34,856 nt of DNA from the IMG/VR virus record IMGVR_UViG_3300022907_000051, positions 1 to 34,856 of that record; one strand, written 5' to 3'. A program made the translations under genes and the position numbers. This DNA comes from a virus. Positions 3,236-32,399 of the stretch are shown here, one piece after another. The notes below the pieces were generated by a model, which had not been told where the DNA came from, made no database searches, and saw nothing but the letters and a program-made list of their open reading frames with translations. Positions within the stretch are counted from its first letter, which is position 1. The number at the start of each line of letters is the position of its first letter.

Positions 3236-4336
3236 TTGATTAAATGCCCATTGCCCTATATGCACCAGTTTATTGGTCAAAATTTCACGAAACCTTGTTG
3301 TAATTTTACAGAAAATAGCAACCTTACACCTACACAATACTGGAATAGTAAAGAACTAGCAACAGTACGCTCAGAACTTGAAAATGGAATATGGCCAAAA
3401 GGATGTAGTAATTGTAAACAACTTGAAGAAAATAATCAATTAAGTTTGCGACAACGCAGCTTACAAGAATATAAAATACCTGTTACTCCAAGTGTAGAAT
3501 ATGTAGATTTAAGGCTGAGTAATAAATGTAATTTTGCATGTAGAAGTTGCGAGCCTATTTTTAGTAGCAGAATTTCAAAAGAAAACAATAAACATAATTT
3601 AAAAGAATATTATGGATATTCTTTAAGTAAGAATTATATTGAGCATACAGAACAAATATCCCAAGATATAAAAAAAATAGTTCCCAAAGTAAAAAAGTTA
3701 ATGTTTACTGGAGGAGAACCAACCTATATTCAGCAATTTTATGAGATTTTAGATACTTGTTCTGCAGAAACAAATTTATTAATTACAACGAATGCAAGTA
3801 TGATAAATGATATCTTTTTAAATTGTATAAAAAAATTTAAAAACCTACATATTACTATTAGTATAGATGCAGTTGGACACCCTGCAGAATATATTAGGTA
3901 TGGTACAAATTGGGATACAATAGATCAAAATATAAAAAAGATATTGTCACTAAAATGTAGTGTTATGTTTAACACTGTATTAAGTGCATATAGTGTGCCT
4001 CATATTGAAAGTTTAGTAGATTACATAATTGAAAATGAACAAGATGCTTATGGTGCAGACATGTATATATGTGATTTCCCACAACATTTACATCCGTGTA
4101 TATTACCAAAAGAATTTCGTAAGCAGTTGACAGATAAAATAAATTGTAGTATTGTAAAGTTAAGTAATAGCAAAAGAGTTGACGATTATGATAATGCAAT
4201 TAAAGTTTTAAAAACACTAGTAATTCAACTTAAGACAGATTATAGAGATAACATAAAGTTTAAGGCATTTACAGATAAACTTGATGTAATACGGAAACAG
4301 AAATATGATTATAGGAATATGTGGACTAATTGGTAG
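3236..4336 (+). CDS. Radical SAM protein with N-terminal twitch-type Fe-S domain (copy A)
   Basis: A 366-aa protein. Residues about 1-80 form a twitch-like auxiliary Fe-S domain (Cys4, Cys21-Cys22, Cys57, Cys60). The radical SAM core follows, with CNFACRSC (Cys98, 102, 105) ligating the catalytic 4Fe-4S cluster and FTGGEP (157-162) binding S-adenosylmethionine. This N-twitch architecture is a known family without, as far as I know, an established substrate; related SPASM/twitch enzymes modify peptides or sugars. The start is TTG, three bases after the neck stop, and the end overlaps the dNMP kinase. It has no promoter of its own and sits between conserved genes like an inserted accessory gene. 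Confidence 0.85.
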   Translation: MIKCPLPYMHQFIGQNFTKPCCNFTENSNLTPTQYWNSKELATVRSELENGIWPKGCSNCKQLEENNQLSLRQRSLQEYKIPVTPSVEYVDLRLSNKCNFACRSCEPIFSSRISKENNKHNLKEYYGYSLSKNYIEHTEQISQDIKKIVPKVKKLMFTGGEPTYIQQFYEILDTCSAETNLLITTNASMINDIFLNCIKKFKNLHITISIDAVGHPAEYIRYGTNWDTIDQNIKKILSLKCSVMFNTVLSAYSVPHIESLVDYIIENEQDAYGADMYICDFPQHLHPCILPKEFRKQLTDKINCSIVKLSNSKRVDDYDNAIKVLKTLVIQLKTDYRDNIKFKAFTDKLDVIRKQKYDYRNMWTNW

Positions 4337-8300: not shown

Positions 8301-8562
8301 AAATGATAAAATAACAAGAGACGAAATAAAGCAACAGATTGAGCAAACACTTAATGATTTAGTTGCAAAGCGTGGTGTTTATGATTATTTGGTTGTATGT
8401 GATGACACAAATAATACATCAGATAGAATTGATCGTAATGAATTATATGTAGACGTTGCTATTGAACCTGTAAAATCAGCAGAGTTTATCTTTATTCCAA
8501 TAAGATTAAAGAATACTGGTGAAATTGCAAGTGGAAACGTAGCAGCTTCAAGCACAGTTTAA
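5335..8562 (+). CDS. 18: Tail sheath protein gp18, enlarged
   Basis: A 1075-aa protein, far longer than the 659-aa T4 gp18. The N-terminus (ISPGVEVTVIDES) and the C-terminal region (ITRDEIKQQIEQTLNDLV, then VVCDDTNNTSDRIDRNELYVDV) are typical of contractile sheath proteins. The sheath polymerises around the tube and contracts to drive it through the host envelope. The middle (about residues 115-690) is a Thr/Ser/Ala-rich insertion containing two related domains at about 230-312 and 440-522, each ending in GT-LTDAG, plus Trp-rich W--DT segments. These probably decorate the outer tail surface. A late promoter precedes it and a strong terminator follows, so it is transcribed as its own unit. Confidence 0.92.
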   Translation: MALISPGVEVTVIDESNYTPSTAGTVAAIVIATAENKTSGTGTGTAAGTTPANAGKTYLIGSQRELTATFGNPTFYNTTAGTPINGYELNEYGLMAAYSLLGVSNRAYVTRADIDLAQLASSTNRPLGNPTNNTVWWDVSADTRWGIFEWNQSTGAFTNKIPTVITSTTDLDTGVPKTSIGAIGDYALVATNTSNPVYYKNRSNAWVLVGSASWQIAHATVAGTIASPRFTNGDSITINGTTVTMVGSTVAELATSINNASITGVTAAVHSNKIEIFANSTAVGVDSVADGKIVLANASGTILTDAGLTAGTYARPLIAQDPHYTVPAWKSTDTTPRPTGSVWVKTTSSNLGFLADVSAYNTATAAFVSSTAPAYENDQTALKNLDTTGGKDISTGSYYVQYDVTENDTVTYKLFQRYSTGATSITGLVNSATPLTASEQFTIQASSANSTTLSTAVTVTLSGTSLADMASDINAANVSNVSASVDTGGYLVISHSLGGVIILKDTSGTPLTDAGITTSITTGQVRAGNNSDLIVSNWIAPTYTASTSAPSANPDADTYWYAGGFEADIMIHNGTTWQGYQNITDTRGFALGDTDPNGVIFSTTAPTLQSDDSVLVNGDLWIDTSDLENYPALYRRQTVDGEAKWVAIDKTDTTTENGIIFGDARFMGDGTTDVVTGTIPTTKTLLTSDYLDIDRPDPTVYPRGILLFNTRRSTYGVKQFKSDYFSRTNFSSTTLYPTLPTEKDAWVTSSGSTFGRKAVRTVVVNAMKSALDASAELREDARTFNVIAAPGYPELISNMVSLNNDRRQTAFVVGDSPMRLAATSTAIENWATNAAAASDNNEDGLVTSDPYLAVFYPSATTNDLNNNTIVVPASHAILRTIARSDDISFPWFAPAGTRRGLVDNVASIGYISASTGAFINDNIRESVRDTLYTNRVNPIAFFQGSGILNYGNKTRAVSTSALDRINVSRLTGYLRRQLQTIATGFVFEPNDKITRDEIKQQIEQTLNDLVAKRGVYDYLVVCDDTNNTSDRIDRNELYVDVAIEPVKSAEFIFIPIRLKNTGEIASGNVAASSTV
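6022..6270 (+). repeat. Sheath insertion domain repeat, copy 1
   Basis: Codes for sheath residues about 230-312. It shares with copy 2 the order: short beta strand, VT(M/L).G(S/T), a helix with (L/M)A..IN.A, (I/V)..V.A.V, a hydrophobic strand, then GTILTDAGLT. The pattern resembles flagellin-hook-IN-like or Ig-like surface modules. It is a diverged protein-level repeat, not a DNA-level one. Confidence 0.6.
6652..6900 (+). repeat. Sheath insertion domain repeat, copy 2
   Basis: Codes for sheath residues about 440-522 and matches copy 1 in order and spacing, ending GTPLTDAGIT. Divergence between the copies is large, so the duplication is old or the domains were acquired separately. Confidence 0.6.
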
Positions 8563-8580
8563 CAAAAATTAAAAAAATAC

Positions 8581-8606
8581 AATGGGGGTTTATACCCCCA
8601 TTTTTT
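8581..8606 (+). terminator. Rho-independent terminator after tail sheath
   Basis: A perfect 9-bp stem (AATGGGGGT / ACCCCCATT) with a 4-nt loop (TTAT), running into a T tract at 8601-8606. It separates the sheath transcript from the tube promoter that follows 14 bases later. Confidence 0.9.
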
Positions 8607-8619
8607 ATGACAAAAAACT

Positions 8620-8627
8620 GATAAATA
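8620..8627 (+). promoter_or_regulatory. Late promoter box of the tail tube gene (GATAAATA)
   Basis: GATAAATA placed right after the sheath terminator. The predicted start is near 8633. The leader contains AGGAG (8644-8648), 9 bases before ATG 8658. Confidence 0.7.
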
Positions 8628-8657
8628 CTTTTATAATTAGATTAGGAGCAGAATGAA

Positions 8658-9275
8658 ATGTCAGTTTCATCATTAACAAAGTTTACAGTACCTATTGACG
8701 GTGACCAGAGTGCGGCAAGCCAAGGCTTGTTAATGCCAAAACTAAAATATCGTTTTAGAGCGAGTTTTGAAAACTTTGGTGTAAGCACACCTAGAACTGA
8801 AATGACAAAACAAATAATGAATATAACTCGTCCTAGTGTTACATTTGAAGAGAACATAATTGATATTTACAACAGTAAAGTATACTTAGTAGGTAAACAT
8901 ACTTGGGAACAAATCACAGTAAACTTACGTGATGATGTAAACGGTTCAGTTTCAAAACTAGTAGGCGAGCAAGTACAGAAGCAATTTGATTTTATGGAAC
9001 AATCAAGTGCAGCTTCAGGTATTGATTATAAGTTTATTACACGTTTTGAAATATTAGATGGTGGTAACGGTGCTAGTACTCCTAACGTTCTTGAAACTTG
9101 GGAACTATATGGTTGTTTTATAGCCAATGTAAACTACAATGATTTAGACTATGCATCACAAGAACCAGCAATGATTACTCTTAGTGTAAGATTTGACAAT
9201 GCAGTTCAAACACCATTAGGTGATGGTATTGGTTCAAGTGTAGCAAGAACAGTTGGACAGGTTGTAACTGGCTAA
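8658..9275 (+). CDS. 19: Tail tube protein gp19
   Basis: A 205-aa protein with the tail tube pattern: KYRFRASFENFGV near the N-terminus, MNITRPSVTFEENIIDIYNSKVY, HTWEQITVNLRDD, and a C-terminal WELYGCFIANVNYNDLDYASQEPAMITLSVRFDNA. This protein stacks in hexameric rings to form the DNA channel inside the sheath. It is somewhat longer than T4 gp19 (163 aa). I chose the ATG at 8658 over one at 8653, which is out of frame. It follows the sheath gene as in T4. Confidence 0.88.
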   Translation: MSVSSLTKFTVPIDGDQSAASQGLLMPKLKYRFRASFENFGVSTPRTEMTKQIMNITRPSVTFEENIIDIYNSKVYLVGKHTWEQITVNLRDDVNGSVSKLVGEQVQKQFDFMEQSSAASGIDYKFITRFEILDGGNGASTPNVLETWELYGCFIANVNYNDLDYASQEPAMITLSVRFDNAVQTPLGDGIGSSVARTVGQVVTG

Positions 9276-9291
9276 TAGGAGTTAGTTATAC

Positions 9292-10581
9292 ATGGCTAGT
9301 GTTAATCCACTTTTAAATGGAATGACCTCTGACAAGACGGTTAGAGATTATAAACACGCATCAAAAACTTTCGTAGACAATAACTATGAGTTACAACCAA
9401 AATACAGTAACTTATTCCATGTTGTATTTGAGTTTACCTCAGATGCTGCTACATTATTTGATACCATACAACAGTTAGAAATTCCAATTCTTGTTAAAAG
9501 TGCAGACTTGCCTTCTTATACACTAGATGTGCAAACCCATAATCAATACAATAGAAAAACACAAAGTCATCATAGTTTTCAATATCAGCCAGTGACAATA
9601 CGATTTCATGATGATGCAAAAGAAAATATAAGAAACTTATGGCACAAATATTACATATATTATAATGCAGATCCTACTTATGATTTAGATGGAAACAGTT
9701 ATACAACTTCAGATAAGTACGCAAACAGAACCCAACAACAATGGGGATTACAAAGAGGTAATAAAAGATTTTTTAAAAACATAAAAATCTATAGTATGCA
9801 CAATCATAAATTTGGTGAGTATACTCTTGTAAATCCTATAATTACTGCTTTTAGTCATGATCAACATGCTTATGCTAACGGCGGGTTAATGGAAAACACA
9901 ATGCAAATAGCATATGAAACGGTTAAGTATGCTACAGGTTTTGTCAATAATATTACGCCACGTGGGTTTGGTGATATACATTATGATGTAGAGGTAAGTG
10001 ATTTAAGTGCAGATAATGCAGCTATTGGAGAAGATAACGCATTTATAGATGGTTCTATTAGAACAACAACAGGTGAACGTCCTAAAGATTTATTTCAGGG
10101 AAATGTAATTGGGACAATTACAGATGCAGATATAATCTTTAATCAATCACGTCTTAATACCCAAAATGTCATACAGGACACTATTGGTATTTTTGCTAAC
10201 AATCTATTAACTGGCAAAAAGCCTAGTAGTAATATATTAGTACCAGTAACTGGTGCAGCAGAAAAACTTGTTAATGACCGTGTGGGGAGAATTGAGAATG
10301 GAATAATAGATTTTTTTAAAGGCGAAAATACAACTAGTACAAGACCTAATAATAGTGATATAGTGCCTACAAATGGTATAGTATTTTCTGAAGGACAAAA
10401 TATTCAAACATATAGAAGTAACATTATAAATTCTAGCACATATGATATAGGTTTTGCAAATCAAGTTCCAAGAGCAGGCACAAAATCCAATGCAGCTAAA
10501 ATTAGTGATATGAGAACTGTAGGTGAAAAAAGTAGTATTGTAAGTAAACCTTTAAGCAAATTAGTAGACGCAGGAACATAA
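9292..10581 (+). CDS. Tail-tube-like structural protein (possible tube initiator or terminator)
   Basis: A 429-aa protein. Residues about 35-220 have the tail-tube fold pattern (LQIEIPILVKSADLPSYTLDV-like core, YQPVTIRFHDDAKENIRNLWHKYY, YTLVNPIITAFSHDQHAY, MENTMQIAYETVKYATG). The rest is a Ser/Asn-rich C-terminal extension. T4 uses tube-fold paralogues (gp48 and gp54 at the baseplate) to start the tube, so this larger paralogue next to gp19 may start or cap it. In T4 the portal gene gp20 lies here, and it is absent. The fold call is from sequence pattern; the exact role is inferred. Confidence 0.6.
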   Translation: MASVNPLLNGMTSDKTVRDYKHASKTFVDNNYELQPKYSNLFHVVFEFTSDAATLFDTIQQLEIPILVKSADLPSYTLDVQTHNQYNRKTQSHHSFQYQPVTIRFHDDAKENIRNLWHKYYIYYNADPTYDLDGNSYTTSDKYANRTQQQWGLQRGNKRFFKNIKIYSMHNHKFGEYTLVNPIITAFSHDQHAYANGGLMENTMQIAYETVKYATGFVNNITPRGFGDIHYDVEVSDLSADNAAIGEDNAFIDGSIRTTTGERPKDLFQGNVIGTITDADIIFNQSRLNTQNVIQDTIGIFANNLLTGKKPSSNILVPVTGAAEKLVNDRVGRIENGIIDFFKGENTTSTRPNNSDIVPTNGIVFSEGQNIQTYRSNIINSSTYDIGFANQVPRAGTKSNAAKISDMRTVGEKSSIVSKPLSKLVDAGT

Positions 10582-19320: not shown

Positions 19321-19347
19321 AGGCACCAATTTTAGGTGCCTTTTTTT
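19321..19347 (+). terminator. Rho-independent terminator after the 655-aa gene
   Basis: Stem AGGCACC / GGTGCCT (19321-19327 with 19335-19341), 7-nt loop, then T7. An upstream AATTGG (19295-19300) can instead pair with CCAATT (19326-19331), which would disrupt the stem; this may be chance. Confidence 0.9.
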
Positions 19348-19352
19348 ATAGC

Positions 19353-19360
19353 CATAAATA
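19353..19360 (+). promoter_or_regulatory. Late promoter box (CATAAATA) of radical SAM copy B
   Basis: CATAAATA lies just behind the terminator and ends 6 nt before ATG 19366. Because the terminator isolates the gene from upstream transcription, a leaderless message is the simplest reading. Confidence 0.65.
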
Positions 19361-19365
19361 GAAGC

Positions 19366-20397
19366 ATGACTAGCAATAAACATAAAATAGATTATGCAGA
19401 GTTTTATATAACAAATGTTTGTAACTATGCCTGTACTAATTGTCGCTCCTTTAATAATTTAAACCTTAAGGGCTTTCAAAAATGGGCAGATTGTAAAGAT
19501 GAATACAAAAAATTTGCTCAAAGATTAGATATAGAAGACATACAAATTCTAGGCGGTGAGCCATTTTTAAATCCTGATATTTACTATTGGATAGAAGGCA
19601 TATTATCTTTATGGCCTAATGCTAGAGTAAAAGTCACCACTAATGGAAGTAGGCGACAGGATGACAAGTTATACAATCTTTTAATAAAACATAATGGAAG
19701 ATTACAACTTGACGTTTCATGTCATGACGAGAACTATTTTGATAAGTTACATAATAATATTAAAGAGTTTTTAGGTAATTGTGATACAAAGATAATTTCA
19801 AATAAAACATCATGGAACACAGATTACGAAAAATTTAAAGGTGAAGATTGGCCGGATCAACCACCTGATATTAATATTGTAGAAAAGTTACCATGGTTAA
19901 TGAGTGAACTAGATGACCTTGGCATAGATTTATACCGTTACAAACATAAAAATAAACGTATAGAGTATACAGTAAACAATGCTTTATACGCAATCTTAGG
20001 TCAGGCATGGAATTTTTCTAAATCTGCTGTAAAAGTATCACACGATAAATTTTATGTTGATACCAAAAGCGATATAGGTACTGCCCATAAGGCATGTATA
20101 TCGAAATACTGTCATCATTTTATAGATGGAAAATTGTACAAATGTCATTTACCATATACATTAAAGGAAGCAATAACACAAGAACATGTTGCAATAAATG
20201 AAGAAGATTACAAAATTTTAGAAAGATATAAGCCCTTAGTAGCAGATGAATCAGAACATAAATTTGATAAATTCATAAAAAATATAAAAAATCCTATAGA
20301 GCAGTGTAAATTTTGTCCAGAATCTAGTGAGGCAGAAAAAATTTCTATTGTAGATAAAAAGAAAATGGATGCAAAAACTTCTGTACTTTTTACATAA
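19366..20397 (+). CDS. Radical SAM protein with C-terminal SPASM-like Cys cluster (copy B)
   Basis: A 343-aa protein from ATG 19366; a GTG at 19336 lies inside the terminator and is rejected. The core has CNYACTNC (Cys19, 23, 26) binding the catalytic 4Fe-4S cluster, ILGGEP (61-66) and VTTNGS. Unlike the other copies the core is at the very N-terminus, and the auxiliary cysteines are C-terminal (ACISKYC, KCHLPY and CKFCPE), as in SPASM/twitch maturases. Substrate unknown; SPASM enzymes modify peptides or sugars. Its transcription unit is single-gene, between a terminator and the gp32 promoter. Confidence 0.85.
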   Translation: MTSNKHKIDYAEFYITNVCNYACTNCRSFNNLNLKGFQKWADCKDEYKKFAQRLDIEDIQILGGEPFLNPDIYYWIEGILSLWPNARVKVTTNGSRRQDDKLYNLLIKHNGRLQLDVSCHDENYFDKLHNNIKEFLGNCDTKIISNKTSWNTDYEKFKGEDWPDQPPDINIVEKLPWLMSELDDLGIDLYRYKHKNKRIEYTVNNALYAILGQAWNFSKSAVKVSHDKFYVDTKSDIGTAHKACISKYCHHFIDGKLYKCHLPYTLKEAITQEHVAINEEDYKILERYKPLVADESEHKFDKFIKNIKNPIEQCKFCPESSEAEKISIVDKKKMDAKTSVLFT

Positions 20398-24341: not shown

Positions 24342-25104
24342 AGAAGTTGCCAAATGGGACAATCAAGCAAGTCATAATCATAGTCTTCTTACATTGAATT
24401 TACTAGATCAATTTGATGACTTTAAACTTAGTATTAAGCATATGGCTGACTTTGGGTGCGGCAAAGGATTAGATTTAGAATTCTGGGCAAATATGCACGA
24501 ATGGACCGAAGACGGTGAGCCAGGGCCTAAATTAAATTTTAATTGTGTAGGATTTGATTTAGATGCAGAAAATAATACTCCTAGTAGAAAAAATATAAAA
24601 TATAAAAATCACGACTTTAATAAAGATAATATTATTTGGAGTGTACCGTTTGATGTTGTGTGGTGTCATAATCTTATGCAACACATATACAGTCCAGTAG
24701 AATTTCTAGGGCGTGTCAATCGTGCTATGTCTACAGGCAGTATGTTATATTTGTGTGTGCCTTCAACTGTAAGTGTATATCAAAACAGATTTCAAAATTA
24801 TACACCAGGACAAAATTATAACACATTTACTGCAAGTCAAATATTATATCTACTAGCACTAAATGGTTTTGACGTAAAAGATTTTTACTTACAAAAAGAA
24901 AAGTATACAGACTTAATACAAGTTTTAACTTACAAAGAACGTGAACCTTTGCCTTACAATACGACTTGGTATGAAATGGTAGACATGGACATACTTAACG
25001 AAAATATGAAAGAAGTAATACTTGGTAATGGAATTTTATCTGACCAAGGCTTAGTAACTAAGTGGTTAGACGGTACAGTATATGATTATAGGTGGCACAC
25101 TTGA
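24334..25104 (+). CDS. SAM-dependent methyltransferase
   Basis: A 256-aa class I methyltransferase: motif I MADFGCGKG (residues 37-45), an acidic loop end at VGFDLDAE, and FDVVWCHNLMQHIYSPVEFL followed by LYLCVPS, typical of the type-11 fold. The start is a TTG overlapping the uvsY stop by 8 bases; no ATG lies early enough to keep motif I. It is the first gene of the accessory island and is coupled (TTGA) to the nucleotidyltransferase-cupin gene, suggesting a small-molecule or sugar target rather than DNA. Confidence 0.75.
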   Translation: MTREVAKWDNQASHNHSLLTLNLLDQFDDFKLSIKHMADFGCGKGLDLEFWANMHEWTEDGEPGPKLNFNCVGFDLDAENNTPSRKNIKYKNHDFNKDNIIWSVPFDVVWCHNLMQHIYSPVEFLGRVNRAMSTGSMLYLCVPSTVSVYQNRFQNYTPGQNYNTFTASQILYLLALNGFDVKDFYLQKEKYTDLIQVLTYKEREPLPYNTTWYEMVDMDILNENMKEVILGNGILSDQGLVTKWLDGTVYDYRWHT

Positions 25105-25904
25105 CAACCCTGGTTCTTGTTACAGGAGGTTTCGATCCTCTTCATAGTGGACATATCGCTTATTTCAAAGCTGCAAAACAATTAGCAAGTTACGGAGGCA
25201 AACTAATTGTTGGTGTAAACAGTGATGCTTGGTTACAACGTAAAAAAGGCAAACCTTTTATGCCTTATAAAGAACGTAGTAAAATAGTACAAGAACTTAG
25301 TTGTGTGGATAGATGTATTAGTTTTGATGACAATGACGATACTGCAAATGGTGCAATACTTAATGTAGTCACACAGTTTAACTTTACAAAATTAATATTT
25401 GCAAATGGTGGTGACAGAACACAAGGCAACTGTCCTGAATATGATGCTTGGAAAACGGACAAACGTATTCAGTTTGAATATGGTGTCGGTGGATTCGACA
25501 AAGCAAATAGTAGTAGTTGGATATTAAAAGATTGGTCTGCACCTAAAGTAAACCGTGATTGGGGTTACTATCGTAATTTATATAATGGCGATGGGTTTCG
25601 TGTAAAAGAATTAGTTATAAATCCACACAGTAAGTTGTCTATGCAAAAACATGAACATAGGAGTGAAACTTGGAATTTGGTTTCAGGAACTGCTAAATTG
25701 TATATAAGCAACAGACAGATGCCAGTAGATCCAGCAGTATACACTTTGTCAGTACAAAATCCTATAGACATACCTAGTGGCGTATGGCACCGAGGTGTAA
25801 ATGATTCTGATTATCCTGCACATATTGTAGAAATTTGGAAAGGCCCCAGCGAGTTATTATCCGAGGACGATATACGTCGCTGGGATCCTATCAAGCAAAG
25901 CTAG
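25101..25904 (+). CDS. Nucleotidyltransferase-cupin fusion protein
   Basis: About 267 aa from the TTG at 25101 that overlaps the previous stop (TTGA), with AGGTGG upstream; a GTG at 25092 is an alternative. Residues 1-145 are a cytidylyltransferase-like domain (GGFDPLHSGH, the HxGH nucleotide-binding site, later GGDRTQGNC). Residues about 150-265 are a cupin of the type joined to mannose-6-phosphate isomerase/guanylyltransferase (DWGYYRNLYNGDGFRVKELV, HEHRSETWNLVSGTA, IPSGVWHRGVN, EIWKGPSELLSEDDIRR). Together these suggest activation of a sugar or polyol phosphate to a CDP- or ADP-linked donor plus a related step. Its stop TAG shares CTAG with the convergent peptide gene. Confidence 0.8.
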   Translation: MTTLVLVTGGFDPLHSGHIAYFKAAKQLASYGGKLIVGVNSDAWLQRKKGKPFMPYKERSKIVQELSCVDRCISFDDNDDTANGAILNVVTQFNFTKLIFANGGDRTQGNCPEYDAWKTDKRIQFEYGVGGFDKANSSSWILKDWSAPKVNRDWGYYRNLYNGDGFRVKELVINPHSKLSMQKHEHRSETWNLVSGTAKLYISNRQMPVDPAVYTLSVQNPIDIPSGVWHRGVNDSDYPAHIVEIWKGPSELLSEDDIRRWDPIKQS

Positions 25905-26005
25905 GCAGTACGCATTGATAACATGCGAAAGTTCATGAATTTACGAACTCTAGCACGGTCACGTGCCTTGCAAAACCTTTTCCATGAAAATGGTCTGTAA
26001 GTCAT
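25901..26005 (-). CDS. 34-aa arginine-rich peptide controlled by a glutamine riboswitch
   Basis: A short minus-strand gene with a strong ribosome-binding site (AGGGAGG, 26019-26013) 7 nt before ATG 26005. The peptide begins MTYRPFSWKRFC, continues ARDRARVRKF and ends MNFRMLSMRTA. It has 8 Arg and 3 Lys against a single acidic residue, so it is very basic. It lies 30 nt downstream of a glutamine-riboswitch aptamer, the arrangement known for cyanobacterial small peptides and glutamine-synthetase inactivating factors, which also act through basic residues. Inference: it inhibits or retunes host glutamine synthetase. It ends in the CTAG shared with the convergent gene. A random ORF of this kind with such a leader is unlikely. 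Confidence 0.75.
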   Translation of the reverse strand: MTYRPFSWKRFCKARDRARVRKFMNFRMLSMRTA

Positions 26006-26035
26006 TAGTCACCCTCCCTAGTTAATAGTTAAGGT

Positions 26036-26080
26036 GCGTTCCTTCAGCGATTGCTTACTTCCGCCCTTACGGGTGAACGT
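26036..26080 (-). ncRNA. Glutamine riboswitch aptamer (glnA type)
   Basis: On the minus strand: P1 CGTTC (26079-26075) pairs with GAACG (26041-26037). P2 is CCC/GGG (26073-26071 with 26066-26064) closed by a GTAA tetraloop. P3 is AGC/GCT (26055-26053 with 26048-26046). The conserved joining bases CGGAAGTA (26063-26056) and GAAGGAACGC (26045-26036) match the glnA/Downstream-peptide consensus as I remember it. The usual GUAGG after GGAA reads GTAAG here. Downstream CACC (26036-26033) can pair with GGTG (26013-26010) next to the Shine-Dalgarno sequence, a possible translational switch. Confidence is high for the class; glutamine-I versus the related Downstream-peptide type is less certain. Confidence 0.82.
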
Positions 26081-26085
26081 ATATA

Positions 26086-26093
26086 TATTTATT
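26086..26093 (-). promoter_or_regulatory. Late promoter box (AATAAATA) driving the riboswitch
   Basis: Minus-strand AATAAATA overlaps the stop codon of the upstream radical SAM gene. With the 6-nt spacing seen elsewhere, transcription starts at 26080, one base before the P1 stem, so the RNA would be almost pure aptamer plus peptide gene. Confidence 0.65.
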
Positions 26094-27504
26094 AATTTAC
26101 ATACATAATTTCTGCAATTTTTGGATAGGTACTTGTAAAGTTTTGATTTCTACGACTGTCTATTTCTTTTACTCTATCCCAAAATTCTGTATTAAGATCT
26201 TTATAATGATTTGTAAAAACATTTACTATGTCACGAATCTTTTTATATGGACTTGACTTAAGGTAATCTATAACTTTTTGTCTTTTAGTAATTGGTATAT
26301 TATCTAAACTAAAATATTGAGGAGAGTACACATGGCTATATTCAATATTAAAACCTAAATTTTCAGCGTACTCATGTATAGTGGTTAGATCTAATACATT
26401 AAAAACACTTGTAGTAGTATGAAAGTCAATTGTAAACTTACTTCTATCAAGTTTAGAAAATTTTTCCAAGTTATTTTTTACTATATCCCAATCAACGCCA
26501 TGTCTTTCATACTCAAATTTTTTGTATAAGTTATCTATACTTAATGAAAATTGAACATTATCAAACATAGATAGAAACTTTAAATGGATATCAGGGAAAA
26601 TTGTTCCATTAGTATTGTAATGTATTTTAATATTTGTTCTTTTATCATCTATAAGGGATTGTAAAATTTTTAAATGTTTGGTATCAAGTAAAGGTTCTCC
26701 TCCTTTAAATGTAATATAATTTAAATCATTAAATGTTTTAATTTTTTCTGTCCAGAAGTTATTCTTGATATCTATAGTATAATCTAATTCACGTATATTT
26801 TGAACTGTTTCATATTTTCTATCCTCTGTATACCATAGACTACTATTTTGTCTATTACATATTCTACATTTTAAATTACAACTTATACCAAGTTTTATAT
26901 CTAAGTTTTTTATTTTCGGGCTTTTAAAAATATCTGTAGTACAATAATCTTTACTAAAGTCAATTATACCTCGTTGTCTTAAACTAGGGATATTAACTTT
27001 TTCTTGTTTCCAACAATTATTACAAACACTAGGCATTTTTCCCTGTCTGAAATCTTGTCTTAACCTTTTAAATGGTTTACTATAAAATGCCTGTTCTAAG
27101 GTTGTATTATTAATATTTGGCCATGTATGTAATTTGTTTGGATCCATCATACAACATGGACTTATTGTTCCTGAAGGATCAACTTCTAATTGTGTAAATG
27201 GGTATATACAAAATGTTTCCTCTCTATTAAATTTAGTTATTGGTCCTGTCATAGTAAAATTTATTACATCATCACATAACTCCTCCATATAAGTTTTTAC
27301 TTCTATGTCGTTGCTATAAACATATATAAAAAATGTAGGAATATCTAATTCACTAATAATTTTATAGAAATGTTTCCAAATACTTTTATCTGTTTTTTTA
27401 TTTGCAGTAATAATAATCTTATCGTCGTATTGGTATTCTTCTTTTTTAATAGATAACAGGTCGTTATACATGTCTTGAAACGGTTGATTATAGTAATCAC
27501 TCAT
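26092..27504 (-). CDS. Radical SAM protein with twitch domain and extra N-terminal region (copy C)
   Basis: A 470-aa protein from ATG 27504; a GTG at 27525 would overlap the upstream stop and is second choice. Residues 1-95 are an extra alpha/beta region. The twitch Fe-S domain follows (Cys99, Cys117-118, Cys161, Cys164), then the radical SAM core CNLKCRIC (Cys209, 213, 216) with FKGGEP (266-271) and NTNGT. The C-terminal part is mixed alpha/beta with no more Cys clusters. It forms a minus-strand pair with the glycosyltransferase-like gene. The twitch motif C(P)...PCC...C..C is shared with copies A and D. Confidence 0.85.
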   Translation of the reverse strand: MSDYYNQPFQDMYNDLLSIKKEEYQYDDKIIITANKKTDKSIWKHFYKIISELDIPTFFIYVYSNDIEVKTYMEELCDDVINFTMTGPITKFNREETFCIYPFTQLEVDPSGTISPCCMMDPNKLHTWPNINNTTLEQAFYSKPFKRLRQDFRQGKMPSVCNNCWKQEKVNIPSLRQRGIIDFSKDYCTTDIFKSPKIKNLDIKLGISCNLKCRICNRQNSSLWYTEDRKYETVQNIRELDYTIDIKNNFWTEKIKTFNDLNYITFKGGEPLLDTKHLKILQSLIDDKRTNIKIHYNTNGTIFPDIHLKFLSMFDNVQFSLSIDNLYKKFEYERHGVDWDIVKNNLEKFSKLDRSKFTIDFHTTTSVFNVLDLTTIHEYAENLGFNIEYSHVYSPQYFSLDNIPITKRQKVIDYLKSSPYKKIRDIVNVFTNHYKDLNTEFWDRVKEIDSRRNQNFTSTYPKIAEIMYVN

Positions 27505-27511
27505 TTCTTTC

Positions 27512-28366
27512 TCAAATACGATCACGCAATCTTCTCCATTGGATATCTATTTCGTCAGCAAACCATTCAGTATAACTCATACGATTTAACCAATTATTTC
27601 TGTCAGGTTTACTAAGCCATGTTCCCATTTCAGTCCCTACATCATATGCTAAACTGTGTTTACTAACTACTGCAGGCACTCCTTGTATTACACTACTTAT
27701 TCCTGCATTACTGCTATGGCTGACTGTAAAATATGTATGGTTCAACATATGTTCCAAATCAAAACTGTCGTACGTCTGTTGTATATGTTTTGGTATATTC
27801 CAAGTTACACCTTGTTGTTTATACCATTCTGTATCACATGACCAGTGTAAACTTTCTCTAAAGCGAGGATGACTACGTACAACTATAGGTTTATCTGTAT
27901 ACTTTCTAACTTGTGTTATAGTGTTCTTGTAGTATGTATCCATATCAGGCATGTCAACCCATTGTTGACTATGACCATGTTGTCCACATATTAATACATA
28001 ATCTCCATCTTGCTTCCATGGTTGAAGTATAATGCCAAATTTATGTAATCTATCATCGGGCATATATTCATCTACTGCAAAGTATGCATCTCGGTTTATT
28101 CCATTTATGCCTAACTTCCAAGTCTTATTACGTACAAGACCGCCTACTTCTATTACTATAACAGGTTTATTTTGTGACCTATAATGTTCCCAGACACGTT
28201 TATTACCAGCCATACGTCCATACCATAACACACTCCATATAAGAGCAGCATCAGCATTCATGTCTTGTTCTACAAGTGTATCTGTTTCTTTTATAGCATC
28301 TAGTACTTGAGGGTAAACTTCGTTAGCATTACCAGGAAGATTATTTGGAAAGTAAGATATTTTCAT
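27512..28366 (-). CDS. Glycosyltransferase-like protein (GT-B C-terminal pattern), paralogue 1
   Basis: A 284-aa protein. The second half reads YVLICGQHGHSQQWVD, YYKNTITQVRKYTDKPIVVR SHPR, then VSHSSNAGISSVIQGVPAVVSKHSLA, the pattern of nucleotide-sugar-binding C-terminal halves of capsule-type glycosyltransferases (a K/R-HPR strand and an S/N-rich loop followed by G(I/V)P.V). It aligns by eye with the genes at 33201 and 33946. It would transfer a sugar to a glycan or peptide; substrate unknown. Its start lies 28 nt from the divergent gene's ATG. No ribosome-binding site or minus-strand late box is visible. Confidence 0.6.
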   Translation of the reverse strand: MKISYFPNNLPGNANEVYPQVLDAIKETDTLVEQDMNADAALIWSVLWYGRMAGNKRVWEHYRSQNKPVIVIEVGGLVRNKTWKLGINGINRDAYFAVDEYMPDDRLHKFGIILQPWKQDGDYVLICGQHGHSQQWVDMPDMDTYYKNTITQVRKYTDKPIVVRSHPRFRESLHWSCDTEWYKQQGVTWNIPKHIQQTYDSFDLEHMLNHTYFTVSHSSNAGISSVIQGVPAVVSKHSLAYDVGTEMGTWLSKPDRNNWLNRMSYTEWFADEIDIQWRRLRDRI

Positions 28367-30052: not shown

Positions 30053-31266
30053 TGAAATACAGTATAGGAAAAACTAGTGGTGTATTCATTGGTGATGAAA
30101 CTGTAGTAAAAATTTTTAACATAAGGAACAAAGCACTTAAACCAAGTAGAGGCACATATCAAGATTGTTGGAATAGAGAAACAACTTGTCTAAACAGACT
30201 TATAGGTGAATTGCATTTCCCACAAATTATTGAAACTTATAATGATATACTAGGTATTAAAATGACAAACACTGGTGAAAGTTTATTTAATACTTGGCAA
30301 GAACACAATCTTATGCTATACTTAGAACAAGCAAATAGGATTGCTGATACATTAGAAAAACATAAAATAAAATACTTTCATGTAGGAATGGATGGAAAAG
30401 CAAAAGTAAACAAACAAAATGTATTTCCTTTAAGTAACTTTTGTATACAAGATGGAGAATTAAGTTTAATAGATTTTGAGATGGCTTGTCCAGTTGATAG
30501 TGAAGCTGAATCTAATATGAGTGATAGGTTCAAAGAATTGTACGCAAAGTATAATCCAGATACATTTAGACAAACATTAATAGATGCACTTAAAAATCCA
30601 AGAGCTTGTTATGAAGCAGAACTAGTAGCAAAGTTGCCTGATAAAGAAAAAATACACGTACTTAAAGACCGTAACCCTAGAGAGGTATATAAATCAATGA
30701 CTACATTTACACAACCTAGCGAAAAGATAGTAAACGAATGGAAAAAGTATCAAAAACGTTTTGGTACTGCTGATGCTATTGATAGAGTAAAACGTATGAA
30801 ACTAAATGAAGTTTGTAAGCCAGAACATAAACTTGTAGACATTGGATGTAATGATGGTTATATAACACAACTAGTAGCACCTATGGTATCAAGTGCGACA
30901 GGTATTGAACCTTTCGTAGAACTACCAGATGATAAACCTGCAAATGTTCAATGGATTAAAAAAACATTTAATGAGTTTTCTGAAACAACAGATCAATATG
31001 ATATTTTACTAAGTCTTGCAGTAAGTATTCAACTACGTGATTTTGGTGGACTTACTGAAGAACAAATAGTGAGTAAGTATTATGATTTAGTTGCACCTGG
31101 TGGTATAGTTGTACATGAAACACAAAAGCTAGAAAACCGTCCCAATAATATAGAACATACAAATGCAATGATAAAAGCATTCAAACAAAAGTTTAAACAG
31201 ATAGATCACGGTCAAGCCAGACCTAGTGGTAAACGTGAATATTATCATTTTCAAAAAGTAGACTAA
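30052..31266 (+). CDS. Kinase-like domain fused to a methyltransferase
   Basis: A 404-aa protein from ATG 30052 (TAATG overlap; a GTG at 30025 is less likely). Residues 1-150 look like a small protein-kinase/phosphotransferase fold: VVKIF (Lys20), a Glu in RETTCLNRL, and LSNFCIQDGELSLIDFEMA with Asn129 and Asp141 (DFE in place of DFG). The usual catalytic HxD is replaced by HVG (110-112), so activity is uncertain. Residues about 225-404 are a class I methyltransferase with LVDIGCNDGY (261-270) and ATGIEP. A two-domain phospho/methyl transferase of this kind suggests a tailor for a glycan or glycolipid. Confidence 0.7.
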   Translation: MKYSIGKTSGVFIGDETVVKIFNIRNKALKPSRGTYQDCWNRETTCLNRLIGELHFPQIIETYNDILGIKMTNTGESLFNTWQEHNLMLYLEQANRIADTLEKHKIKYFHVGMDGKAKVNKQNVFPLSNFCIQDGELSLIDFEMACPVDSEAESNMSDRFKELYAKYNPDTFRQTLIDALKNPRACYEAELVAKLPDKEKIHVLKDRNPREVYKSMTTFTQPSEKIVNEWKKYQKRFGTADAIDRVKRMKLNEVCKPEHKLVDIGCNDGYITQLVAPMVSSATGIEPFVELPDDKPANVQWIKKTFNEFSETTDQYDILLSLAVSIQLRDFGGLTEEQIVSKYYDLVAPGGIVVHETQKLENRPNNIEHTNAMIKAFKQKFKQIDHGQARPSGKREYYHFQKVD

Positions 31267-32399
31267 TGAAACCTCTTTGTCTTGTACCATGGACAAGTAT
31301 AGATATAAGTCCACGTGGATCTATAACACCTTGTTGTAAAATACAATTAAAGCATGAAGATAAACCTAATATTCTAAACCAAAGTATTGCTGAATACACA
31401 ACTAGTGACTTTCTCAAAAATATTAAAGATAAGATGATCAAAGGTGAGTGGCCTATAGAATGTATAAGATGTAAAACTGAAGAAGACAATGGCATAAAGA
31501 GTAAAAGGATACTAGATTATGAAAGATGGAAAACAGATTGGGATACTTATACTGAAGATAGAGGTTACATAGTTGCAAGTATAGCCTTTGGTAATACTTG
31601 TAATCTAAAATGTATTACGTGTAAATCTTCATCTAGTAGTAGATGGCGTAAAGAATATAATGATATATATGGCATAGATATAAAACCAGTAGAAACTATT
31701 AGTGCTGATGCAAACGAAATATATAATGCAATGCCTAATGTAATACATTTTGATATTCCAGGTGGCGAACCATTACTTAGTGAAATTTCAAAACAAAAAA
31801 CACTCTTACAAAAATATGTAGATAGCGGACAAAGTAAAAACATTACTCTTCATTACACAACAAATGCACAACTTTTTCCTAGTGAGGATTGGTGGGAACT
31901 TTGGCAAAACTTTTCTGAGGTAGATATACAACTTAGTGTTGATGGTGTTGGTAGAAAATATGAGTATATAAGATATCCTGCAAAAAATGAACTTCTAGAA
32001 GAATCTATTATAAAGTATAAGGCTCAACAGGACAAAACACCTAACCTTAAAATTAGTGTGAGTCATACTGTTAGTGCCTATAACATTTACTACCTTAGTG
32101 ATTTTTTTGATTGGTGTGCAGCTTACGGATTACCAAAGCCATGGTGTGGAGCAGTACATAATCCAAAACATATGAAACCAACTGTATTCCCAAATCCTAT
32201 AAGAGAAAAAATTGCAAATCATTTAAAAACTAGTAGACATGAAGATGTACGTGTATGGGGTAATTTTGTAGAAAATAACGATAGCAGTCAGTATTACCAA
32301 GAATTTTTAACTAGAAAAGATCAACACGATTTATATCGTAATTTAAATTTTGCTGAAACATTCAGCCAAGTTGAGGAGTTAATCAATGGCTTTCAATAA
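31266..32399 (+). CDS. Radical SAM protein with N-terminal twitch-type Fe-S domain (copy D)
   Basis: A 377-aa protein. The twitch domain begins at once (Cys5, Cys23-Cys24, Cys66, Cys69), then the core CNLKCITC (Cys112, 116, 119), DIPGGEP and HYTTNA. It closely follows the layout of copies A and C but without C's N-terminal extension. It starts in the stop of the kinase-methyltransferase gene (TAATG) and overlaps the next gene by 14 bases, so it belongs to the island operon. The role is probably oxidative or radical modification of a peptide or sugar; the substrate cannot be read from sequence. Confidence 0.85.
   Translation: MKPLCLVPWTSIDISPRGSITPCCKIQLKHEDKPNILNQSIAEYTTSDFLKNIKDKMIKGEWPIECIRCKTEEDNGIKSKRILDYERWKTDWDTYTEDRGYIVASIAFGNTCNLKCITCKSSSSSRWRKEYNDIYGIDIKPVETISADANEIYNAMPNVIHFDIPGGEPLLSEISKQKTLLQKYVDSGQSKNITLHYTTNAQLFPSEDWWELWQNFSEVDIQLSVDGVGRKYEYIRYPAKNELLEESIIKYKAQQDKTPNLKISVSHTVSAYNIYYLSDFFDWCAAYGLPKPWCGAVHNPKHMKPTVFPNPIREKIANHLKTSRHEDVRVWGNFVENNDSSQYYQEFLTRKDQHDLYRNLNFAETFSQVEELINGFQ

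Follow-up and report, generated by a model that had tools for sequence, protein, structure and literature searches.

A glutamine-I riboswitch aptamer and its basic micro-gene in a T4-like phage, with homologues in SAR116-order bacteria

Described glutamine riboswitches and the phage locus

A 2018 review described glutamine riboswitches as restricted to cyanobacteria (PMC6316151), and a survey of pelagimyophages reported no riboswitches at all. Phage examples have been published, so far as scattered curiosities of unclear target. One of them, in the Methylophilales phage Melnitz, was assigned to ssrA, i.e. to tmRNA (PMC9004378), and in the cyanophage S-CREM1 a glnA RNA stands ahead of a short ORF (PMC9964418).

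Here we analyze the virus record IMGVR_UViG_3300022907_000051 of IMG/VR over positions 1 to 34,856, hereafter the window, whose minus strand carries a new member of this known class. The features of the locus and of its flanks are the following:

26092 to 27525, minus strand: radical SAM/SPASM protein gene, upstream flank, outside the cassette (Pfam)
26086 to 26093, minus strand: predicted late promoter element of T4 type, AATAAATA, which shares bases with the radical-SAM stop codon (motif counts and placement)
26033 to 26081, minus strand: glutamine-I riboswitch aptamer, RF01739 (56.6 bits, E 4.6e-10; covariation in P2)
26031 to 26036, minus strand: 5' strand of the helix that sequesters the Shine-Dalgarno sequence, CACCUU, directly adjoining P1 (covariation, with pairing in 97% of cells)
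26012 to 26019, minus strand: Shine-Dalgarno sequence AGGGAGGG (sequence)
26010 to 26015, minus strand: 3' strand of this helix, AGGGUG, which overlaps with the Shine-Dalgarno region (covariation)
25901 to 26005, minus strand: micro-gene, 34 aa, net charge +10, MTYRPFSWKRFCKARDRARVRKFMNFRMLSMRTA, with a predicted single helix at residues 8-32 (ORF, purifying selection, AlphaFold2, homologues)
25092 to 25904, plus strand: cytidylyltransferase-like and cupin gene, convergent flank (Pfam, ORF list)

Several described systems share part of this layout. The cyanobacterial gifB (IF17) riboswitch, like the window, combines an RF01739 aptamer, a helix directly 3' of P1 that overlaps the Shine-Dalgarno sequence and a small, basic downstream protein, which in the window is also arginine-rich. 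However, gifB is under NtcA control whereas the window cassette has a putative phage late promoter instead, and the window protein shows neither DUF4278 nor a detectable IF domain. The RF01704 (glutamine-II / Downstream-peptide) RNAs that precede PMM1846-type micro-proteins in picocyanobacteria also place a short ORF after a glutamine aptamer, but they differ in aptamer class: the window scores 11.1 bits (E 2.9) with this model, below its cut-off of 33 bits, and its aptamer is therefore of class I and not of class II. Membership in RF01704, which the first-pass annotation had suggested checking, was rejected on these values. In S-CREM1, unlike the window, the ORF encodes 48 aa with a YRG (DUF4278-like) N-terminus and the host is a cyanobacterium; its locus (L001, 2011-2109) also holds a second GUUC...GAAC hairpin nested in the glnA element, with the look of an aptamer within an aptamer.

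Melnitz resembles the window in that a class-I aptamer in a T4-like marine phage is followed at its 3' side by a micro-ORF, here of 32 aa. In the Melnitz locus (L344) the tmRNA is annotated at 486-938, and the aptamer starts at about position 901, in the 3' end of that tmRNA. The aptamer is directly followed, in sense direction, by an unannotated micro-ORF (972-1070 of the locus, about 46470-46568 (+) of MZ577097.1) with the sequence MTLYQQWCYLKAQKEYRRRQKILMYFRIRLKG and its own Shine-Dalgarno sequence and sequestor, at a site where the record annotates an antisense ORF of 33 aa. At 65% identity (E 3e-17), its product matches a phage micro-protein from the aptamer-linked class. While the Melnitz switch was published as controlling ssrA, a tmRNA was not found in the window, whose micro-protein belongs to a different family.

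In the open-access papers that were searched we did not find described, as a rule, a cassette of late promoter, aptamer, sequestor and micro-gene, nor the window family, its SAR116-order homologues or the Melnitz micro-ORF; priority is uncertain. Late expression, sequestration of the Shine-Dalgarno sequence and the connection of the micro-gene to a host are additions to the first-pass annotation, the interpretation of which is supported overall.

Aptamer, expression platform and micro-gene

When the whole window was compared with Rfam by cmscan, RF01739 (Glutamine) was the sole match above gathering (26081-26033, minus strand; 56.6 bits against a gathering threshold of 35, E 4.6e-10), with model positions 1-53 all covered. 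The glnA-type aptamer that had been read from the letters of the minus strand thus clearly passes the covariance search, and its elements, P1 CGUUC/GAACG, P2 CCC-GUAA-GGG and the joining bases CGGAAGUA and GAAGGAACGC, are correct as first written. The element is a glutamine-I riboswitch aptamer, and sensing of glutamine by the phage is strongly implied.

For covariation, 57 leaders were picked by a pattern fixing P1 and the joining bases, the invariance of which is by construction, so that only P2 and the sequestor are informative in this set. P2 is paired in 100% of the leaders with up to four pair types (UA29/CG13/AU10/GC5). The sequestor alone is 97.2% paired, its fourth pair (columns 57-82) being CG32/UA18/UG5, and the combined aptamer and sequestor structure is 98.9% paired. 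Over the whole structure, 67 cells show double changes against 17.9 in shuffles, with 0 of 500 shuffles as high, and slid registers come nowhere near the covariation of the true register. Additionally, swapping helix partners between loci lowered the mean helix from 4.71 to 4.23 +/- 0.06 in viral loci and from 5.63 to 4.97 +/- 0.10 in genome loci. We regard control of micro-gene translation by the Shine-Dalgarno helix as highly probable. A pairing between a P2 strand and the Shine-Dalgarno region (UCACCC/GGGUGA), also present in the window, was considered as the switch and judged a coincidence, as P2 varies freely in other families, the Shine-Dalgarno helix does not track it and the predicted probability of the pairing is 0.

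Free-energy folding leaves the Shine-Dalgarno sequence paired whether or not the aptamer is forced to form, the free fold favoring the sequestor and leaving P1 open; the switching direction is therefore not readable from energies and rests on analogy. In this regard, cyanobacterial leaders have the same P1-adjacent layout (GCCUC...GAGGC), and glutamine activates both gifB and PMM1846 in cyanobacteria (PMC6316151), by comparison with which an ON switch, with translation at high glutamine, seems the likelier polarity. The same architecture could work as an OFF switch, with glutamine-bound P1 stacking on the sequestor and locking the Shine-Dalgarno sequence, in which case the protein would be made when glutamine is scarce and would promote rather than brake nitrogen assimilation. 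The sequestor does sit directly on P1 and is predicted to be stable with the aptamer formed, the sequence itself leaves the direction unfixed, and the glnA and amtB copies of marine bacteria, expected to be OFF, carry the same aptamer. However, those glnA and amtB leaders have a different, longer 3' region lacking the short sequestor, and it is the glutamine-activated gifB type that shares the layout adjoining P1, so that we consider an OFF switch rather improbable.

Upstream, AATAAATA starts 14 nt before the aptamer and places the aptamer start at about +1; with this placement, the RNA should begin at around the base that opens P1. Late promoters of the T4 type resemble TATAAATA, and the authors of the Melnitz study searched for TATAAAT (PMC9004378). 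The motif ATAAATA is under-represented in the window (11 copies against 24.8 expected from shuffles), and many of its copies lie directly ahead of late or structural genes. Among viral aptamers, NATAAATA, the late-promoter motif of marine T4-like phages, occurs within 30 nt upstream in 72 of 150, against 6.4 expected by letter shuffling, mostly (nearly all) at -21 to -14, and in only 4 within the adjacent next-upstream 30 nt. Bacterial aptamers do not share this placement, with the motif upstream in 6 of 64 cases against 3.4 expected. On motif and placement, AATAAATA is quite probably a T4-type late promoter.

The ORF of 34 codons begins 30 nt behind the aptamer core at 25901-26005 (minus strand), and both this gene and the AGGGAGG ribosome-binding site are present as first annotated. 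In 25 distinct homologous cores of 27 codons, the reading frame of the gene has a pN/pS of 0.31, whereas the two alternative frames give 1.21 and 1.06, and entropy is concentrated in third codon positions; the ORF is a real coding gene under purifying selection. The family consensus is MTYRPFSWKRFCxARDRARVHKILNYR, and the AlphaFold2 model of the 34-mer consists of one confident helix (residues 8-32, mean pLDDT 84). The protein has no match in PHROGs, in PDB sequences or in Pfam, in the latter not even at E 10, so that the DUF4278 (YRG, PF14105) match is also absent at that level. A likeness to IF7/IF17 perceived by eye (R-x-x-x-[IM]-L-x-R) was rejected as homology, since profile comparison stayed at the shuffled level (hhalign score 7.4, equal to the shuffled-column mean; E 0.35). 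We hypothesize that the micro-protein may work like an IF, and do not accept that it is one.

Viral cassettes and bacterial homologues

A pattern scan of viral contigs returned at least 120 stretches, or 48 with a narrower pattern. In the tally of 154 viral aptamers, which excludes those at contig ends, 149 have a Shine-Dalgarno sequence, an ATG and an ORF of 15-100 aa within 75 nt, compared with 5.1% of random positions in the same contigs, and the median net charge of the encoded products is +7. Several families can be told apart among the micro-ORFs, including the window family itself, the WxxYC/WCF and YRG/DUF4278 types and one type with GTSGYxVK. The WxxYC and WCF types are related to one another (hhalign 94%), and a weak link of the window family to them is suggestive only (hhalign 16.3 against a shuffled maximum of 11.1). 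The window family occurs in more than 30 contigs. Their neighboring genes form three or more groups that share little or nothing, namely the lineage of the window, a large number of further T4-like phages (with a DnaB helicase closest to that of 'Phage C48C1') and singletons. The cassette thus seems to be mobile among phages of different lineages.

A profile search of 101 genomes from the order of a SAR116 single cell gave five strong matches to the window family (E 9e-17 to 4e-12). Four of them are genes of 38 aa, e.g. MTYIPYQWKKFVQARNRAIVHKILAFRRPKSCTCKLAS, each preceded by two clean glutamine aptamers in tandem, with a Shine-Dalgarno sequestor of the same type and ordinary bacterial neighbors (CBS, MerR, GNAT, tautomerase), two of these loci being on contigs of 73-75 kb. 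The fifth match (genome G212) has a stop inside it and a weaker aptamer. One phage locus (L114), in which the aptamers are likewise in tandem and the C-terminal tail is host-like, is an intermediate form between phage and host loci. Homologues numbered 0 in a class-wide sample of 385 genomes which, together with the 5 in 101 within the order, indicates that the bacterial gene is narrow in range. Common ancestry of the window micro-gene and the SAR116-order gene is very likely in view of these similarities.

Regarding the host, the TerL and UvsX proteins of the window phage are closest to those of the jumbo phages PA5oct, Atu_ph07 and Phosso, which agrees with its earlier description as T4-like and led us to reject a cyanophage origin. 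Rather than to cyanobacteria, the best lead to a host points to the alphaproteobacterial SAR116 order, which stands as a candidate only. Pelagibacteraceae were rejected as the source of the window family, because 99 of their genomes gave only short, sub-threshold matches to it in a profile search. What the Pelagibacteraceae do encode are homologues of a different phage family, the GTSGYxVK family, found in 95 of 147 of their genomes, two of them with RF01739 upstream. The SAR11 protein of this type (loci L238/L300 and L301-L314) has 63-75 aa, contains ..NGTSGYxVKxGxNxGKVLxH.. and often adjoins an rlmN-like gene. On two proteobacterial contigs (L194, L167), phage-type micro-genes stand behind tandem aptamers beside bacterial genes. 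Together with the GTSGYxVK family, these contigs suggest that modules have been shared between phages and hosts more than once.

Within the SAR116 order, glutamine aptamers also stand ahead of amtB in three genomes and of gltB in one; those of other marine proteobacteria precede glnA and amtB. Nine loci of marine Alpha- and Gammaproteobacteria, outside cyanobacteria, have aptamers, often in tandem, before glnA, amtB or gltB (L134, L176, L232, L231, L142, L148, L177, L188, L337). Considering these neighbors in regulation, the micro-protein would belong, by guilt of association, to a glutamine-controlled nitrogen-assimilation set. GlnE is the classical adenylyltransferase of glutamine synthetase (GS). 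It is full-length in 0 of 9 riboswitch-bearing genomes, being half-length in 6 and missing from 3, and in 51 of the 92 remaining genomes. This contrast (9 of 9 without the full-length protein against 41 of 92) has a Fisher p of 0.0012, uncorrected for ancestry; when the test is confined to genomes with the micro-gene, 5 of 5 lack the full-length protein, which is weak (p 0.027, phylogeny uncorrected). About a third of the SAR116-order genomes (order of G006, PF03710 search) encode a half-length GlnE of ~500 aa with one adenylyltransferase-type domain.

Role and genomic setting of the cassette

We propose that the locus is a monocistronic phage cassette of late promoter, glutamine-I aptamer, Shine-Dalgarno-sequestering helix and micro-gene. 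The late transcription apparatus of the phage would transcribe it in the late phase of infection, from about the first aptamer base onward, and free glutamine would then gate translation in vivo through the helix that joins the bases 3' of P1 to the Shine-Dalgarno region, most likely switching it ON at high glutamine as in gifB. The product, a basic helix of 34 aa, would be a version of the microprotein that some SAR116-order bacteria make from tandem glutamine riboswitches, transfer having presumably run from host to phage. This microprotein most likely would bind and damp a component of host nitrogen assimilation, with GS as the first candidate. After the shutdown of host gene expression or the loss of host mRNA, the phage might benefit by keeping, or over-applying, the glutamine brake of its host, so that ammonium assimilation would be damped when glutamine is plentiful through the phage copy of a glutamine-gated microprotein. 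Taken as a whole, this reading of a captured host module, transcribed late, gated by glutamine and damping host nitrogen assimilation with a basic helix, appears somewhat more probable to us than its negation. As for its parts, action on nitrogen assimilation is an even call, and GS as the direct target is a tentative suggestion, the role of a direct GS inhibitor being an analogy given that homology to IF7/IF17 was not detected.

The switch may also operate as described while the micro-protein acts elsewhere, as a basic helix on nucleic acid, the ribosome or the phage or host polymerase late in infection, with glutamine serving as a signal of the metabolic state of the host. Such a role would fit a protein of only 34 residues that has a net charge of +10 and is predicted to fold as a lone helix, and so would the occurrence of phage micro-proteins in several families without common sequence, which suits loose electrostatic partners. 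We find it on the unlikely side, however, because the bacterial riboswitch targets of known function are all nitrogen-assimilation genes, a set that includes the micro-gene. Far less probable is that the short ORF merely encodes a leader peptide, or is a by-product, and that the riboswitch controls something else nearby, as the published assignment of the Melnitz switch to ssrA (PMC9004378) would suggest. In Melnitz, the aptamer at the tmRNA 3' end is itself followed by the sense micro-ORF related to a phage micro-protein; in the window, conservation is at the amino-acid level, the micro-gene strand has no directly following gene and the micro-gene stop overlaps that of the convergent gene, which makes a leader-peptide role unlikely. 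We rejected that role on selection (pN/pS 0.31) and gene order.

Returning to the captured nitrogen brake, it may be, though we would not count on it, that T4-like marine phages, with hosts from several groups, have on repeated occasions taken over the glutamine-riboswitch microprotein modules of their hosts and rewired them to a late promoter, so as to run a host-mimicking brake on nitrogen according to glutamine level, for example by a non-cyanobacterial glutamine synthetase inactivator. If true, this would amount to a general, mostly unannotated viral control layer over marine nitrogen metabolism. The link to SAR116 suggests that such viruses borrow the nitrogen-control switches of their hosts and run them late in infection. 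In this analysis the target of phage glutamine riboswitches is nearly always an adjacent, usually unannotated micro-gene, about half of the time with the late-promoter motif, and the micro-gene of the window family is common to the phage and the chromosome of its candidate hosts. Whether, and for what purpose, phages read host glutamine thereby becomes directly testable, including in the cultured Melnitz and H5P1. The results also point to control of amtB, gltB and glnA by glutamine riboswitches in SAR116, SAR86 and related heterotrophs.

Regarding the surroundings, the window has further radical-SAM-like genes (3236-4336, 19336-20397 and 31266-32399, besides 26092-27525). The genes at 26092 and 31266 have SPASM domains, and near the radical-SAM-like genes lie methyltransferases as well as a 2OG oxygenase, possibly as a peptide or sugar modification island. 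Another T4-like marine viral contig with the cassette (L262) encodes a RuBisCO-large-like protein at 8492-9596 on the minus strand (PF00016, E 5e-24).
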